From positions 1 through 59,195 of the IMG/VR virus record IMGVR_UViG_3300044825_002433: a DNA stretch of 59,195 nucleotides; one strand, given 5' to 3'. Position 1 is the stretch's first letter. Each line of letters begins with the position of its first letter. This stretch comes from a virus. Both the position numbers and the translations under genes were made by a program. Under the pieces are notes generated by a model. It worked only from the letters and a program-made list of their open reading frames with translations, did not search any database and had not been told where the DNA came from. Positions 14,857 through 19,607 of the stretch are shown one piece after another.

Positions 14857-14907
14857 TTGTTCGTCGACAACGATTTTCCGAAGCTGCTCGGTGCAGAGCT
14901 CTATCGT
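14857..14907 (+). CDS. Capsid gene exon 1
   Basis: This exon encodes the first 17 residues, ending AELYR. Reading on into the intron gives PHQ and a stop, so without splicing only a 20-residue peptide would form. The alternative split inside the shared CC dinucleotide gives the same protein. Confidence 0.65.
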
Positions 14908-17900
14908 CCGCATCAATAGGTGCCTAGATAATTAAAGTTATCTAGAAAACCTCGTGAATTGCTGGAACCCTTCTTCCAGTGCTCGCTAACCCTTCGGGGG
15001 AACCTTGAAAATTAGACCCAGTAACTTCTGGGCGTTATGTAAGACCTCTTCTGAGCACGCAGAGGTCGAGGGAATCAGCAGCGAAGCCGTGTGGGAACAT
15101 ACGGAACGTTCAGAGACTAGATGAAGTAATCCAGAACGGATGAAACATCCAAGAGCGCGAGGCTCCTAAACAGGTAATGCTGTAGGAGATGATATAGTCC
15201 GAGCTTACGCGATAGCAAAGCGTAAGAGCTGGAAGATAAAGAGCTTCCAGGATAACAAACTGCCTGCGTACGTTGTAGAGATGGCTGCTGAGCCTGTAGT
15301 TGTTCACGATTTTAGTAAACAACCAGGCCAAACTGTGCAGCTGGACAGATATCGCTTCTGGGGTAATCCCGGTAGCAAGGAGTCACGCGAGCGTACTGCT
15401 GAGCAGACCATTGGTACTGCAAACAGCAGGAACATCGTAAAGGATAAAGTTCTTGTGACTCTTCGTGAGTACACAGGTCCTGCAGATCCTAGTGATCCTA
15501 CACAGCCTAGTACTTTTAAGATTGCTAAAACCTTGGCCCTCGCTTGAGAAATCAGGTGATGCGCACTCCGTGAATTGCTGGAACCCCTCCTGACGTTTTA
15601 TTATGTCCGGGAAATCAGCAGCCGAGCTTGATGAGTAATCATCTTGAAGGTTCAACGACTAGGGTTGGCGGTTGTACGCTTGACCTGTTGCCTAGTGCGG
15701 ATCAGGCTTTTCTAAAAGCCTGTCTCTTTGGGGACGGTTGGTTAGGTCTTCAACGCAAAAAATACGTACACCTACGTATAGGTCACTCAGCTAAACAACT
15801 TAACTGGCTGACCTACAAAGCTAAGAAGATAAACCAAATACTAAATAAAGATAGAAAAATTTTAGGGCCTTATAAACAATCCGACGGTTCTAATAAAGAT
15901 AAGATTCACTACTCTTATCTCTATTGTGTTGATGACCACGAATTATTTTCACCGTGGTTTGATCGTTGGTATGAGGTTCCTTCAGTCGGGAAAGTAATAA
16001 AACACGTTACTCCCGATTTTCTATCTGGATTAGGTCTCCCAGAGTTAGCCGTCCTGTGGTGTGATGATGGCTCTGTCAGTTCATCTGATCGAGTTACAAA
16101 ACATTACCTTAAAGATGGAACTCTTAGAGAATATCCGTACGTAGAAGCGCAAGGTCAGATTGCCCTATGCTCTTTAGATTATGAAGAGCACCAGCTTGTA
16201 AGAGAGTGGCTTTATTCCATAACAGGCGTAAAGTGGCGCTACTCTCCTAGAAGCAAGGAAAATAGGGCTACCTTAAACATTGGAAAAAGGGCTTTACGCG
16301 AATTTCTACCGCTCATCGCCCCTCATATTCCTTCGTTTATGGCGTATAAAGTCGATTCCTCCCACTGCCGGATACGGTAAAGGAGGAGACCCCACGAGCG
16401 CGGAGCATCCAAACAGGTGAAGCTGTGGATGATGATATAGTCTGAACTTACGGGATGGTAAACCGTAAGATCTAGAGGATAAAGAGCCTCTAGGGTAACA
16501 ACTTGAGGGAAACTCTGATTACCGCCCAACGTTTACTGTTGGATACAGGTAATCTGACTGCTTTCCATCAATCCATCGGGTCTCTGACTCTTTTGGATGA
16601 CTACACACCTGTGGTCGCTTAGCTAGAAACAGTTAAGGCAATTTAGGGTGAATTGCTGGAAGCCCTTCCCCCTTCAGCAAGGGAAAAGGATTGTGCACCA
16701 CAACGTAATCGGTAACGATAGGCGTGACGGTTTAAAAAACACAACTCCGCATGGGTAATCAGCAGCCAAGCCGGAGAATATACGCTCTGGAAGGTTCAAC
16801 GACTAGATCCCGAGAGGAAACTCAGTAACGGATCCACGAGTGCCCTATACCTGACCTTCGACAACAAAAAAGAGATCCCTCTTTCGAAGTAAACAAGGAA
16901 CATCTTCACTGGCGTTAGCGTAAATAAGCTCACCGAAGTGTAAGGCGTTCTTAGAATACATTCGAAGGTTATACTCTTTATCTACTCCATCTAGAGTGGG
17001 GTAGATATGTTCCTTGTTTAAGAATTCTTTTAATTGTTCGGCTAACAGCTTGCTGCCTGTCGTTATTTTTGCTTCTATAGAGTTTTTCCTTTTGGAAATA
17101 GAACCGTTTCCATCGAAATACCCTCGAAGCCAAAAAATAAAAAGGCTGTGCGGCAGTTTAGGAGCTTCAACAATTAAAGATTTTTTCGGAGGAACTCCGG
17201 CTTTCATTAGATGAACTGCAGCATTTTTTGCTGTTAGTTTTATTTGCCATAAGTTATTTGTTTCGCGCTCTTTGCGGAGTAAACCAGGGTAACCTAAGTC
17301 TTCTGCAAAATGTTCAAGCAAGTAGCTGTCTGCTTCTTTTAAAGCTATGGCAAATCCTTTTGGCTCATTATGTTCCCGGACGATCCAACCGTCTGCGGCT
17401 ATCAGCCCCAACCAATAAGCTTTACGAGGACTGTCGATGTCCGAAAAAAAGTTTTCATTAGCTCCGCTCTTTCGGTAGCTAAAGACTCTTTTTGCTCCGG
17501 GCTTTGCCTCGTAAACATCGCTATACTTTCGTTCGCCTTTCTTCTGCGCGTATGAGAGTACTCCGTGCTTCTTACGAGCATGGGTGGCGGCTGTTCTGGA
17601 CAAGCCAAAAGATCTAGAAATTTCCGCGTCTGAATACAAAGAAGTCAACTCATCCAGTTCCTCTTTTGTCAGATCGGTTAGAGCCCGCTCAGTCACGTCG
17701 AAGAAGGTAAAGATATAGTCTAACACTGCTCGATGATAAAGAGCAGTCGATCGGATAAAGAGCCGATTGGTCTCTTATGAGATTTTTGAGACAGGCGCTG
17801 GCGTGATCGGGTGTTCATTAATGAACTCCTGAAAGCCGTATCTAAGGGTCAGTCTTCTGACTCTCAGGGTGGTTACTACTATCCTGGTGACCTCGCTGTT

Positions 17901-19607
17901 GGTGCTTTAACCTACAGCAACGCCGAACAAGCCAAGTTCGACGTCAAGGACGACCTGCTGCGTGTGGTCAAGAGCCTCCGCAAACGGAACGTCCCCACCT
18001 ACCAAGACGGGTTCTATCGCTGCGTTTGCGATCCAACCTTCTTGCTGCACCTGCGCCAAAACAGCGACTTCCGTGAAGTTGCTCGTTATCCCGGCAATGG
18101 GCAGATCAACCCGCTCATGTCTTCGATGCAGCCTAACGCTGCCATCTACATGGGCCAAGGTTTCGGCCAAGCCACTTTCGTGGCGGGCGAACCCATCATG
18201 CCTAAACAAACCTGGGCCTGCGCGGCGTGAGTCGCGTAGCAAACGGGGTGAATTCAGGGAACCCCTCCTTAAATAAAGGGGAATCCTGAGCCAAGCCGAC
18301 TGAGGAATCGGTCGGAAGGTGCAACGATCAGGAGTCGAGTCCAGACCGGACAGTAATACTCCCACGAGCGCCCCGCTACTCAGATGCGTTTAGCCACAGC
18401 AAAGCTTCTACTCGCTTTCTAGGGATACATACTTCTTGGTTAATCTCATACAACCAAGATAGTACTTCTTTCGGTTTTTTCCCGAAAGTGATTGTATAAA
18501 AAGGTTTCTGAGATTTCAGAAGTTTTTCTGTAATCGAGCAAGAAACTTTAAACTCTTCGGATACCCAGCTATTCCAGATAGCTATAAGGTCCATTGAGCA
18601 AGAACCAAAATTTAATGTTTTGGTTTGGTTTTTTATACAACCATCTCCATCTAAAAGTCCTCTCAAATAATGAGGACGCAATTCCTTGGAAAGACCAGTG
18701 TAAGCTTTATTTTTTGTTGTGTCTTCTGTTATTCCAAAACGTCTTAAACAATCTACTAATACACGGTTGTATACTCTCAACCGTCCGTAACTGGTGTTGT
18801 TTTTGTCTCCTCTGGAATATATAGCTACTTTAGAAGCACTTTTGAGTTCCACAGCTAGTGTTTCGAGGACACAATAATCAGGTTCTTTAAGTTCTATGCT
18901 CAAAAATTTATTTTTGTCATAGCTCAAACAACCGTCTGTGGCTATTAATCCAAGGAAATATGCTTTTCTTGGTGTATCTATCTCGGCAAAATACAAACTT
19001 TCGGGTGAATCTAAATTTTTGTGAGGAGTTCCTTCTCCTGGCAGTAGTATCTCGCCCGTAAGCCGACCTTGACGACTTTCTGTTTTTTCGGTAAAGGACC
19101 GTATCCCGTATTTTTTCCTTAGAGAAAAAACCGTGGATACAGCCAAATTTAGTTGTTTGGCAATCTGAGTATCTGAAAATTGGAAAGTTAAAGTTTCTAA
19201 AACTTTTGGGTCGACTGTAACTTTTTTGCCTTGAGCCATGTGAGTAGATGAGATGATCTGAGCTGCATCAATGGGAAAGATGCAGATCTAGGGGATAAAG
19301 AGCCCCTAGGATAACACACCTGACGGGTTTCGTGTTCGAAGGAGTGCGCTTTTTCGAGTCCACCAACATGCCTTCGCAGTCTCAGACTGCAACTATCGGT
19401 GGTTCTGCCGCTTCTTACGAAGCTGCAATTGGTATGTTCTTCGGTCCTCAGAGTGTTGGCGTCGGCATCGGCGGTAACAACGCTCAGGTTCTTTTGAACA
19501 ACAATGACGACTTCAGCCGTTTCATCATGATGATTTGGAGCCTGTACGCAGGTTTCGAACTTCTGAACGCTGATTTCGCCACCATCGCTTACTCCTTTAA
19601 CGCTTGA
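14857..19607 (+). CDS. Major capsid protein, five exons split by four group I introns
   Basis: The proposed join is 14857-14907, 15263-15544, 16506-16619, 17796-18203 and 19323-19607, giving 379 residues (17+94+38+136+94), a normal size for an HK97-fold capsid protein. Each junction keeps frame, follows a U at the exon end and a G at the intron end, and restores protein sense: ELYR/PAYVVEMAAEP, TLALA/RETLITAQ, TPVVA/RWRDRVF, EPIMP/TGFVFEGVRFF. The start is TTG 14857, with GGAGG eight bases before it and an in-frame stop just upstream. Position after portal and scaffold fits the capsid gene. Unspliced, every exon hits a stop within a few codons. Splice points are inferred. Confidence 0.82.
14908..15262 (+). 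ncRNA. Group I intron 1 (no endonuclease gene)
   Basis: A 355-base intron with the core strings GTGAATTGCTGGAAC, AATCAGCAGCGAAGCC, GTTCAGAGACTAGA and GATATAGTCC in order. Near the 3' end is a hairpin with GGAA/TTCC paired round the loop ATAAAGAG that all four introns share. CTAGATAA/TTATCTAG makes a perfect hairpin near the 5' end. It contains no long frame, so it is the minimal form of this intron family. The P1 pairing is poor by eye, so the 5' boundary is the least certain of the four. Confidence 0.8.
15263..15544 (+). CDS. Capsid gene exon 2
   Basis: This exon encodes 94 residues from PAYVVEMAAEP to TLALA, including DRYRFWGNPG. It meets TGA directly after the proposed splice site, at 15545-15547. 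An isolated 88-residue gene from ATG 15281 would be a misreading. Confidence 0.8.
15545..16505 (+). ncRNA. Group I intron 2, with a sense-strand endonuclease gene
   Basis: A 961-base intron. P1 can be drawn between the exon end TCGCT and GGTGA ten bases into the intron, with the usual U-G pair at the splice site. The core holds GTGAATTGCTGGAAC, AAATCAGCAGCCGAGC, AAGGTTCAACGACTAG and GATATAGTCTG. The terminal hairpin is GAGG-ATAAAGAG-CCTC. The intron ends AACTTG before exon 3. A LAGLIDADG gene occupies most of its length. Confidence 0.85.
15628..16380 (+). CDS. LAGLIDADG homing endonuclease (intron 2)
   Basis: A 250-residue frame on the sense strand. The two helix motifs are KACLFGDGWLG (about residue 30) and LAVLWCDDGSV (about residue 145), as in the LAGLIDADG_2 style, with tracts between that would form the DNA-contacting saddles. 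Such enzymes cut intronless alleles and spread the intron. The first ATG lies within the intron core: its first dozen codons overlap AAGGTTCAACGACTAG, so a later start is possible. It is read from the same strand as the capsid gene, unlike the other two intron genes here. Confidence 0.82.
   Translation: MMSNHLEGSTTRVGGCTLDLLPSADQAFLKACLFGDGWLGLQRKKYVHLRIGHSAKQLNWLTYKAKKINQILNKDRKILGPYKQSDGSNKDKIHYSYLYCVDDHELFSPWFDRWYEVPSVGKVIKHVTPDFLSGLGLPELAVLWCDDGSVSSSDRVTKHYLKDGTLREYPYVEAQGQIALCSLDYEEHQLVREWLYSITGVKWRYSPRSKENRATLNIGKRALREFLPLIAPHIPSFMAYKVDSSHCRIR
16506..16619 (+). CDS. Capsid gene exon 3
   Basis: This exon encodes 38 residues, RETLITAQRLL to DDYTPVVA. It is the shortest internal exon and too short to look like a gene alone. 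A TAG follows one base after its end. The codons stay in frame with exons 2 and 4 only if both neighbouring introns are removed. Confidence 0.75.
16620..17795 (+). ncRNA. Group I intron 3, with an antisense endonuclease gene
   Basis: A 1176-base intron. The exon end TCGCT can pair with GGTGA just before GAATTGCTGG. Core strings GTGAATTGCTGGAAG, TAATCAGCAGCCAAGCC, AAGGTTCAACGACTAG and GATATAGTCTA match introns 1 and 2. The shared hairpin is ATCGG-ATAAAGAG-CCGAT. It ends GAGACAGG before exon 4. The endonuclease gene lies on the opposite strand between the conserved CACGAG string and GATATAGTC. Confidence 0.85.
16845..17726 (-). CDS. LAGLIDADG homing endonuclease, antisense in intron 3
   Basis: A 293-residue leftward protein. 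An N-terminal helix-turn-helix (LTSLYSDAEISRSFGLSRTAATHARKK split over residues 28-54) precedes two LAGLIDADG helices: AYWLGLIAADGWI with Asp112 and FWLRGYFDGNGSI near residue 210. Both acidic residues are present, so cleavage activity is plausible. Because it is antisense to the capsid gene, it cannot be translated from the capsid pre-mRNA and needs its own promoter on the minus strand. Confidence 0.85.
   Translation of the reverse strand: MLDYIFTFFDVTERALTDLTKEELDELTSLYSDAEISRSFGLSRTAATHARKKHGVLSYAQKKGERKYSDVYEAKPGAKRVFSYRKSGANENFFSDIDSPRKAYWLGLIAADGWIVREHNEPKGFAIALKEADSYLLEHFAEDLGYPGLLRKERETNNLWQIKLTAKNAAVHLMKAGVPPKKSLIVEAPKLPHSLFIFWLRGYFDGNGSISKRKNSIEAKITTGSKLLAEQLKEFLNKEHIYPTLDGVDKEYNLRMYSKNALHFGELIYANASEDVPCLLRKRDLFFVVEGQV
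17796..18203 (+). CDS. Capsid gene exon 4
   Basis: This is the largest exon, 136 residues from RWRDRVFINELL to EPIMP. If unspliced it would run on through KQTWACAA to a stop at 18230. The proposed 5' splice site after ATGCCT allows a four-pair P1 with GGGC ten bases downstream, the same spacing as in intron 2. Confidence 0.8.
18204..19322 (+). ncRNA. Group I intron 4, with an antisense endonuclease gene
   Basis: A 1119-base intron. Where introns 1-3 have GCTG paired with CAGC, this one has CAGG (GTGAATTCAGGGAAC) with CCTG (AATCCTGAGCCAAGCC), a compensatory change that supports the pairing. AAGGTGCAACGATCAG is the variant of the core string. The shared hairpin is GGGG-ATAAAGAG-CCCC. It ends CACACCTG before exon 5. 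The endonuclease gene is again on the opposite strand. Confidence 0.85.
18376..19239 (-). CDS. LAGLIDADG homing endonuclease, antisense in intron 4
   Basis: A 287-residue leftward protein related in layout to the intron 3 enzyme: an N-terminal helix-turn-helix (FSDTQIAKQLNLAVSTVFSL, residues 21-40), then AYFLGLIATDGCL (Asp102) and HYLRGLLDGDGCI near residue 200. Both catalytic Asp positions are kept. The phrase DTPRKAY before the first motif matches DSPRKAY in the other enzyme, so the two share recent ancestry. It too needs a minus-strand promoter. Confidence 0.85.
   Translation of the reverse strand: MAQGKKVTVDPKVLETLTFQFSDTQIAKQLNLAVSTVFSLRKKYGIRSFTEKTESRQGRLTGEILLPGEGTPHKNLDSPESLYFAEIDTPRKAYFLGLIATDGCLSYDKNKFLSIELKEPDYCVLETLAVELKSASKVAIYSRGDKNNTSYGRLRVYNRVLVDCLRRFGITEDTTKNKAYTGLSKELRPHYLRGLLDGDGCIKNQTKTLNFGSCSMDLIAIWNSWVSEEFKVSCSITEKLLKSQKPFYTITFGKKPKEVLSWLYEINQEVCIPRKRVEALLWLNASE
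19323..19607 (+). CDS. Capsid gene exon 5
   Basis: The C-terminal 94 residues, TGFVFEGVRFFESTN through FATIAYSFNA, then TGA. The hydrophobic strand-rich end and GGNNAQVLLN region suit the capsid core. It is followed after 14 bases by the next virion gene with GAGGAG as ribosome-binding site. Confidence 0.8.
   Translation, partial: TGFVFEGVRFFESTNMPSQSQTATIGGSAASYEAAIGMFFGPQSVGVGIGGNNAQVLLNNNDDFSRFIMMIWSLYAGFELLNADFATIAYSFNA

Follow-up and report, generated by a model that had tools for sequence, protein, structure and literature searches.

Introduction

Three group I introns within a single phage gene, orf142 of Staphylococcus phage Twort, were reportedly described by Landthaler and Shub in 1999. 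Among the Bastillevirinae, individual polymerase and terminase genes contain two or three introns of group I, mostly IA-like (PMC11878797). The major capsid protein (MCP) gene has also been found interrupted. Mycobacteriophage LittleE carries in its major capsid gene a group I-like intron of 819 bp, which is preceded by U, ends in G and holds a LAGLIDADG homing endonuclease gene (HEG) on the bottom strand; RT-PCR together with N-terminal sequencing proved that it is spliced (Pope et al. 2013, PMC3706429). In the crAss-like Zeta group phage cMAG OLRF01000054, which is of metagenomic origin, the MCP gene is in five fragments, and three of the four gaps contain group I intron-type domains (Yutin et al. 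2021, PMC7886860).

The gene described here lies in the virus record IMGVR_UViG_3300044825_002433 of IMG/VR, the whole of which (positions 1-59,195; 59,195 bases) is referred to as the window. Its MCP gene contains four group I introns, whereas Twort and the Bastillevirinae have at most three per gene, in genes other than the major capsid gene, and LittleE has one capsid intron. An antisense LAGLIDADG gene within a capsid intron is common to LittleE and to introns 3 and 4 of the window. The crAss-like Zeta phages come from the gut and many of their genes contain introns and inteins, while for the lineage of the window the records searched yielded intron matches in the capsid gene only; intron sites and HEGs also differ between the two. 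The window introns belong to a known kind, and capsid-gene introns have precedents in LittleE and the crAss-like Zeta group. In the open-access literature searched, no description was found of a lineage whose capsid gene has up to five introns at a total of 17 sites, other genes seemingly being spared. The original prediction, made from the letters of the window, called four introns in a single gene exceptional, which seems fair; its view of the capsid gene as an unusual target needs to be qualified, given that capsid introns have been published (PMC3706429, PMC7886860), although this gene is the only target found in the lineage.

It is considered very probable that the MCP gene of this S-EIV1-like phage carries four group I introns, that their self-splicing restores the protein, and that homing by HEGs has made the gene a hot spot.

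The virus and its interrupted capsid gene

From its gene content, the window is assigned to a partial genome of an S-EIV1-like cyanophage. Synechococcus phage S-EIV1 (KJ410740) matches its TerL, portal and head protein (MCP) with 51%, 43% and 68% identity, respectively, and further genes around the head protein match S-EIV1 as well; in the window, the terminase and portal genes are followed by that of the major head protein. The latter is encoded in more than 590 IMG/VR stretches, and S-EIV1 has the sole matching head protein among 50,697 phage records searched. All 12 of 12 homologues matched PHROG 1357 (major head protein). No Pfam model matched the window MCP, a PDB sequence search returned chance matches only, and the AlphaFold model of an intact MCP, that of the nearest relative L006, had a pLDDT of 30, too low to be used for recognition of an HK97 fold.

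In contrast to the window, S-EIV1 has a capsid gene without introns, and a scan of its genome with the Rfam group I model (RF00028) gave zero matches. The intact S-EIV1 gene has 383 codons and a GTG start (L001 6001-7152, equal to KJ410740 60859-62010); in GenBank, a CDS on the minus strand (AHV82227.1) and a fragment at the 3' end (AHV82228.1) are annotated over it instead of the intact gene. Introns help to explain why the capsid genes of phages such as that of the window can escape standard annotation.

Two lines of evidence define the five exons, all on the plus strand: gapless homology to a first sample of 80 intact, intron-free MCP homologues, and a purpose-written spliced-alignment program, with a mild preference for U before an intron and G at its end, which independently gave exactly the same four introns. 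Exon 1 (14857-14913), placed by the gapless homology, opens with TTG, ends in CGT CCG CAT and covers codons 1-19. Homologues and spliced alignment together place exon 2 (15263-15526; codons 20-107), exon 3 (16506-16602; codons 108-139 and the first base of codon 140), exon 4 (17791-18203; from the remainder of codon 140 through codon 277) and exon 5 (19323-19607; codons 278-371 and the stop codon). The joins are therefore 14913/15263, 15526/16506, 16602/17791 and 18203/19323, and the resulting protein of 371 residues aligns without gaps over at least 369 residues with the 80 intact relatives.

That a single open protein emerges only after excision of four segments, with the frame kept across each join, had been proposed in the original prediction and is borne out once the joins are corrected. 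The intronless homologues uphold its four-intron model and refute the exact coordinates of three joins: 18203/19323 was placed to the base, whereas 14907, 15544, 16619 and 17796 were wrong, the first ending exon 1 6 nt too early. The exons as first drawn do join into an open protein of 379 residues, which lacks the residues PH at join 1 and includes intron-derived residues at joins 2 and 3.

The gene might alternatively be a decaying pseudogene with four insertions, the protein being supplied by another, intact capsid gene of the phage. Splicing is indeed inferred, and a second copy might lie outside the window, which is a fragment; none is found within it. Against decay, the protein is 98.9% identical to that of L006 at a DNA identity of just 87.6%, with a dN/dS of 0.015 for the joined exons and below 0.03 in each exon, so that purifying selection acts strongly on the interrupted gene, in all five exons; moreover, in other phages the set of introns differs while the exons are just as open. 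A pseudogene is thus very improbable.

Group I features of the four introns

Of the four introns, all on the plus strand, intron 1 (14914-15262; 349 nt, after codon 19) is the smallest and contains no HEG, while introns 2 (15527-16505; 979 nt, after codon 107), 3 (16603-17790; 1188 nt, phase 1, in codon 140) and 4 (18204-19322; 1119 nt, after codon 277) each contain one. RF00028, searched over 5 kb, matches all four, with 56.5, 25.2, 50.2 and 33.2 bits and E-values of 9e-13, 0.002, 7e-11 and 8e-6, respectively. These scores, like the introns present at the same sites in independent contigs, speak against a chance resemblance. Two of them exceed the Rfam gathering score; introns 2 and 4, as whole matches, remain below it because of the HEG inserted inside. 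At the site of intron 4, a sibling in L089 that lacks the HEG reaches 57.5 bits, relatives of intron 2 at its site score 24.7-34 bits, and those of intron 1 are present in L087 and L103. The MCP introns of all relatives scanned with Rfam match RF00028 too.

The same core strings recur in the same order in all four segments, as originally noted, and P3, P7 and P9 are paired in each. Pairings found further include P1, P2, P4, P5 and P9.1 in intron 1, P9.1 and a 4-bp P10 in intron 2, and P1 and a 5-bp P10 with the corrected 3' exon ACAGG in intron 3. P10 is seen in introns 2 and 3 with the corrected 3' exons and is weak or absent in introns 1 and 4, and a P1 with a U.G pair can be drawn at every corrected 5' site. 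The long-range P3 differs in sequence among the four introns but is paired in every one of them; across 35 introns, 15 distinct P3 strand pairs are 96% paired, as compared with 74% (maximum 87%) with shuffled partners, the sole failure, in L113, being probably due to a misplaced motif. P7 occurs in three fully compensated versions (GACUA/UAGUC, GAUCA/UGAUC and GCAUA/UAUGC), of which intron 4 has the second. The spacing of P7 and P3 (the P7.1/P7.2 region) and the presence of P9.1 resemble subgroup IA.

The four segments follow an exon U and end in G, as had been stated, and so do 36 of the 36 introns collected, the boundaries of which were chosen partly by this very rule. An in-frame stop lies 6-27 nt into each of the four introns, ahead of the core; in 33 of the 36 it precedes P3 (20.9 expected). 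The assignment to group I, also part of the original prediction, is supported by Rfam, the covarying P3 and P7, the U...G boundaries, the HEGs and the intronless homologues.

Removal by another route, namely as inteins, group II introns or segments bypassed in translation, is even less probable than a pseudogene. Bypass segments of the type of phage T4 gene 60, with a stop codon in a hairpin, do exist, and two relatives of the window have an oddly short insert of 50 nt (see below). Inteins are excluded by the early in-frame stops, no group II family matched the insertions at the Rfam gathering threshold, and all four segments have group I cores.

Homing endonuclease genes and proposed mechanism

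The HEGs of introns 2-4 all encode LAGLIDADG proteins, in two arrangements. That of intron 2 (15628-16380, plus strand; Pfam LAGLIDADG_2, 6e-11; PHROG 11023) starts within the P6/P7 core and occupies the interval between P7-5' and P3-3'. Its dN/dS is 0.08-0.15, and its six relatives in IMG/VR all occupy this very position of the MCP gene, in genes that contain further introns elsewhere. The HEGs of introns 3 (16845-17726; Pfam LAGLIDADG_3, 2e-13; PHROG 4645, 3e-32) and 4 (18376-19239; PHROG 4645, 2e-32; Pfam LAGLIDADG_3, 5e-9) are on the minus strand, in P8. The former is less than 60% identical to any phage protein, and none of the relatives sought in IMG/VR was confirmed; the relatives of the latter reach only 28% and are located outside MCP genes. 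Among the relatives examined, HEGs are in the sense orientation at codons 18, 22, 36/37, 48, 52 and 107, and antisense at 31, 140 and 277.

In the proposed mechanism, each intron RNA would fold into a P3-P9 ribozyme, the guide of which pairs with the 5' exon (P1, with U.G at the cleavage site); exogenous guanosine would then be used and the exons joined, to yield a normal capsid protein. The early in-frame stops may serve to keep ribosomes off the ribozyme core. The endonucleases of introns 2-4 would cut, at conserved codons, the capsid gene of co-infecting relatives that lack the intron, and repair of the cut alleles would spread it; both occupied and empty alleles are present in the lineage. 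Intron 1 and many of the relatives' introns have presumably lost their HEG, leaving small introns, since introns at the same site in divergent phages occur with and without it.

The capsid gene as an intron hot spot among relatives

The distribution of introns among relatives was assessed in a second sample of 80 loci, retrieved with 136 residues of exon 4, a stretch whose sole observed intron is that at codon 144 of L179. Of these loci, 47 are intron-free, 30 have one or more introns and three are truncated; being the loci nearest to the window in that exon, they do not make 30/77 a population frequency. Relatives contain one to five group I introns per capsid gene. Five were found by pattern scan in L179, at codons 3, 37, 48, 144 and 277, each matching RF00028, and in L330 (3618-4965) two group I introns flank a capsid exon of 17 nt. 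Altogether 17 sites are occupied (codon.phase): 3.2, 4.0, 6.0, 18.0, 19.0, 22.1, 31.2, 36/37, 48.0, 52.1, 53.0, 89.1, 107.0, 140.1, 144.0, 277.0 and 285.2. Eleven are within the first 60 codons, and intron 3 is the only example found at codon 140. Local conservation at the sites, which are in part interdependent, is 0.88 versus 0.785 at random positions (P 0.00025). An Rfam scan of 15 related records, S-EIV1 included, gave no RF00028 match outside the capsid gene, which appears, in these records, as the intron hot spot of the lineage.

Assembly of unrelated pieces into an artefactual gene, conceivable for a metagenomic contig, is the least probable explanation of all, as homologous introns occupy sites 19, 107 and 277 in independent contigs from other samples and the junctions are exact to the base.

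In a tree of the intron cores, introns cluster mainly by site (107, 36/37, 19, 31, 4 and 277), with some low support values, a pattern compatible with inheritance, or with homing, at fixed sites. Two exceptions, a codon-48 intron that groups with one from codon 52 and an intron of codon 22 placed inside a codon-48 group, suggest occasional relocation between sites. Wholesale intragenic duplication as the main process was rejected, because the core tree groups mostly by site and not by genome. Serial homing into conserved capsid codons, together with occasional relocation, would have built up the hot spot. The 17 sites, several with empty, HEG-less and HEG-bearing alleles, offer a natural series for homing, HEG loss, relocation and possible phage interference.

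A broader reading, which we put forward tentatively and hold to be rather doubtful, is that the capsid gene is a specialised landing gene for two HEG lineages (sense in P7-P3; antisense in P8), with at least 17 conserved sites, relocation, and endonucleases used as weapons that would attack, in mixed infections, the capsid gene of competitors lacking the introns. The intron endonuclease gp210 of PhiPA3 has been shown to disable virion production of the competitor PhiKZ, a precedent that makes interference testable in this lineage.

Some candidate introns were discarded: the spliced-alignment calls at the unrelated loci L092-L094, L165 and L241, which were meaningless, with scores near zero; a call at codon 33 in L088 and L089, on inspection of the sequence; and, as a would-be fifth intron, one at codon 367 of L090 and L091.

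A structured insert of 50 nt, confined to contigs L088 (3093-3160) and L089 (1806-1873), is found at the codon-31 intron site. It follows a U, ends in G, has an in-frame stop within a hairpin, shows a fold z-score of -6.1 and is followed by a coding island of approximately 17 nt and then by the codon-37 group I intron; the two copies show few differences, two compensatory pairs among them. The insert may be an intron that has lost its core, or else a bypass element. In the intron-bearing capsid gene of L113 (2940-2960), approximately 7 nt are missing before codon 33, a frameshift due to mutation or assembly error. Sub-threshold Rfam matches to anti-hemB RNA 3' of the capsid gene in L087 (3366-3432; 29.3 bits) and L131 (6551-6630; 27.9 bits; gathering score 49.5) are probably due to chance. 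Finally, the P9.1 motif GATAAAGAGCNNNNAGGRTAACA is also present in many viral contigs with no matching capsid gene found, so that related introns probably reside in other genes of other phages.
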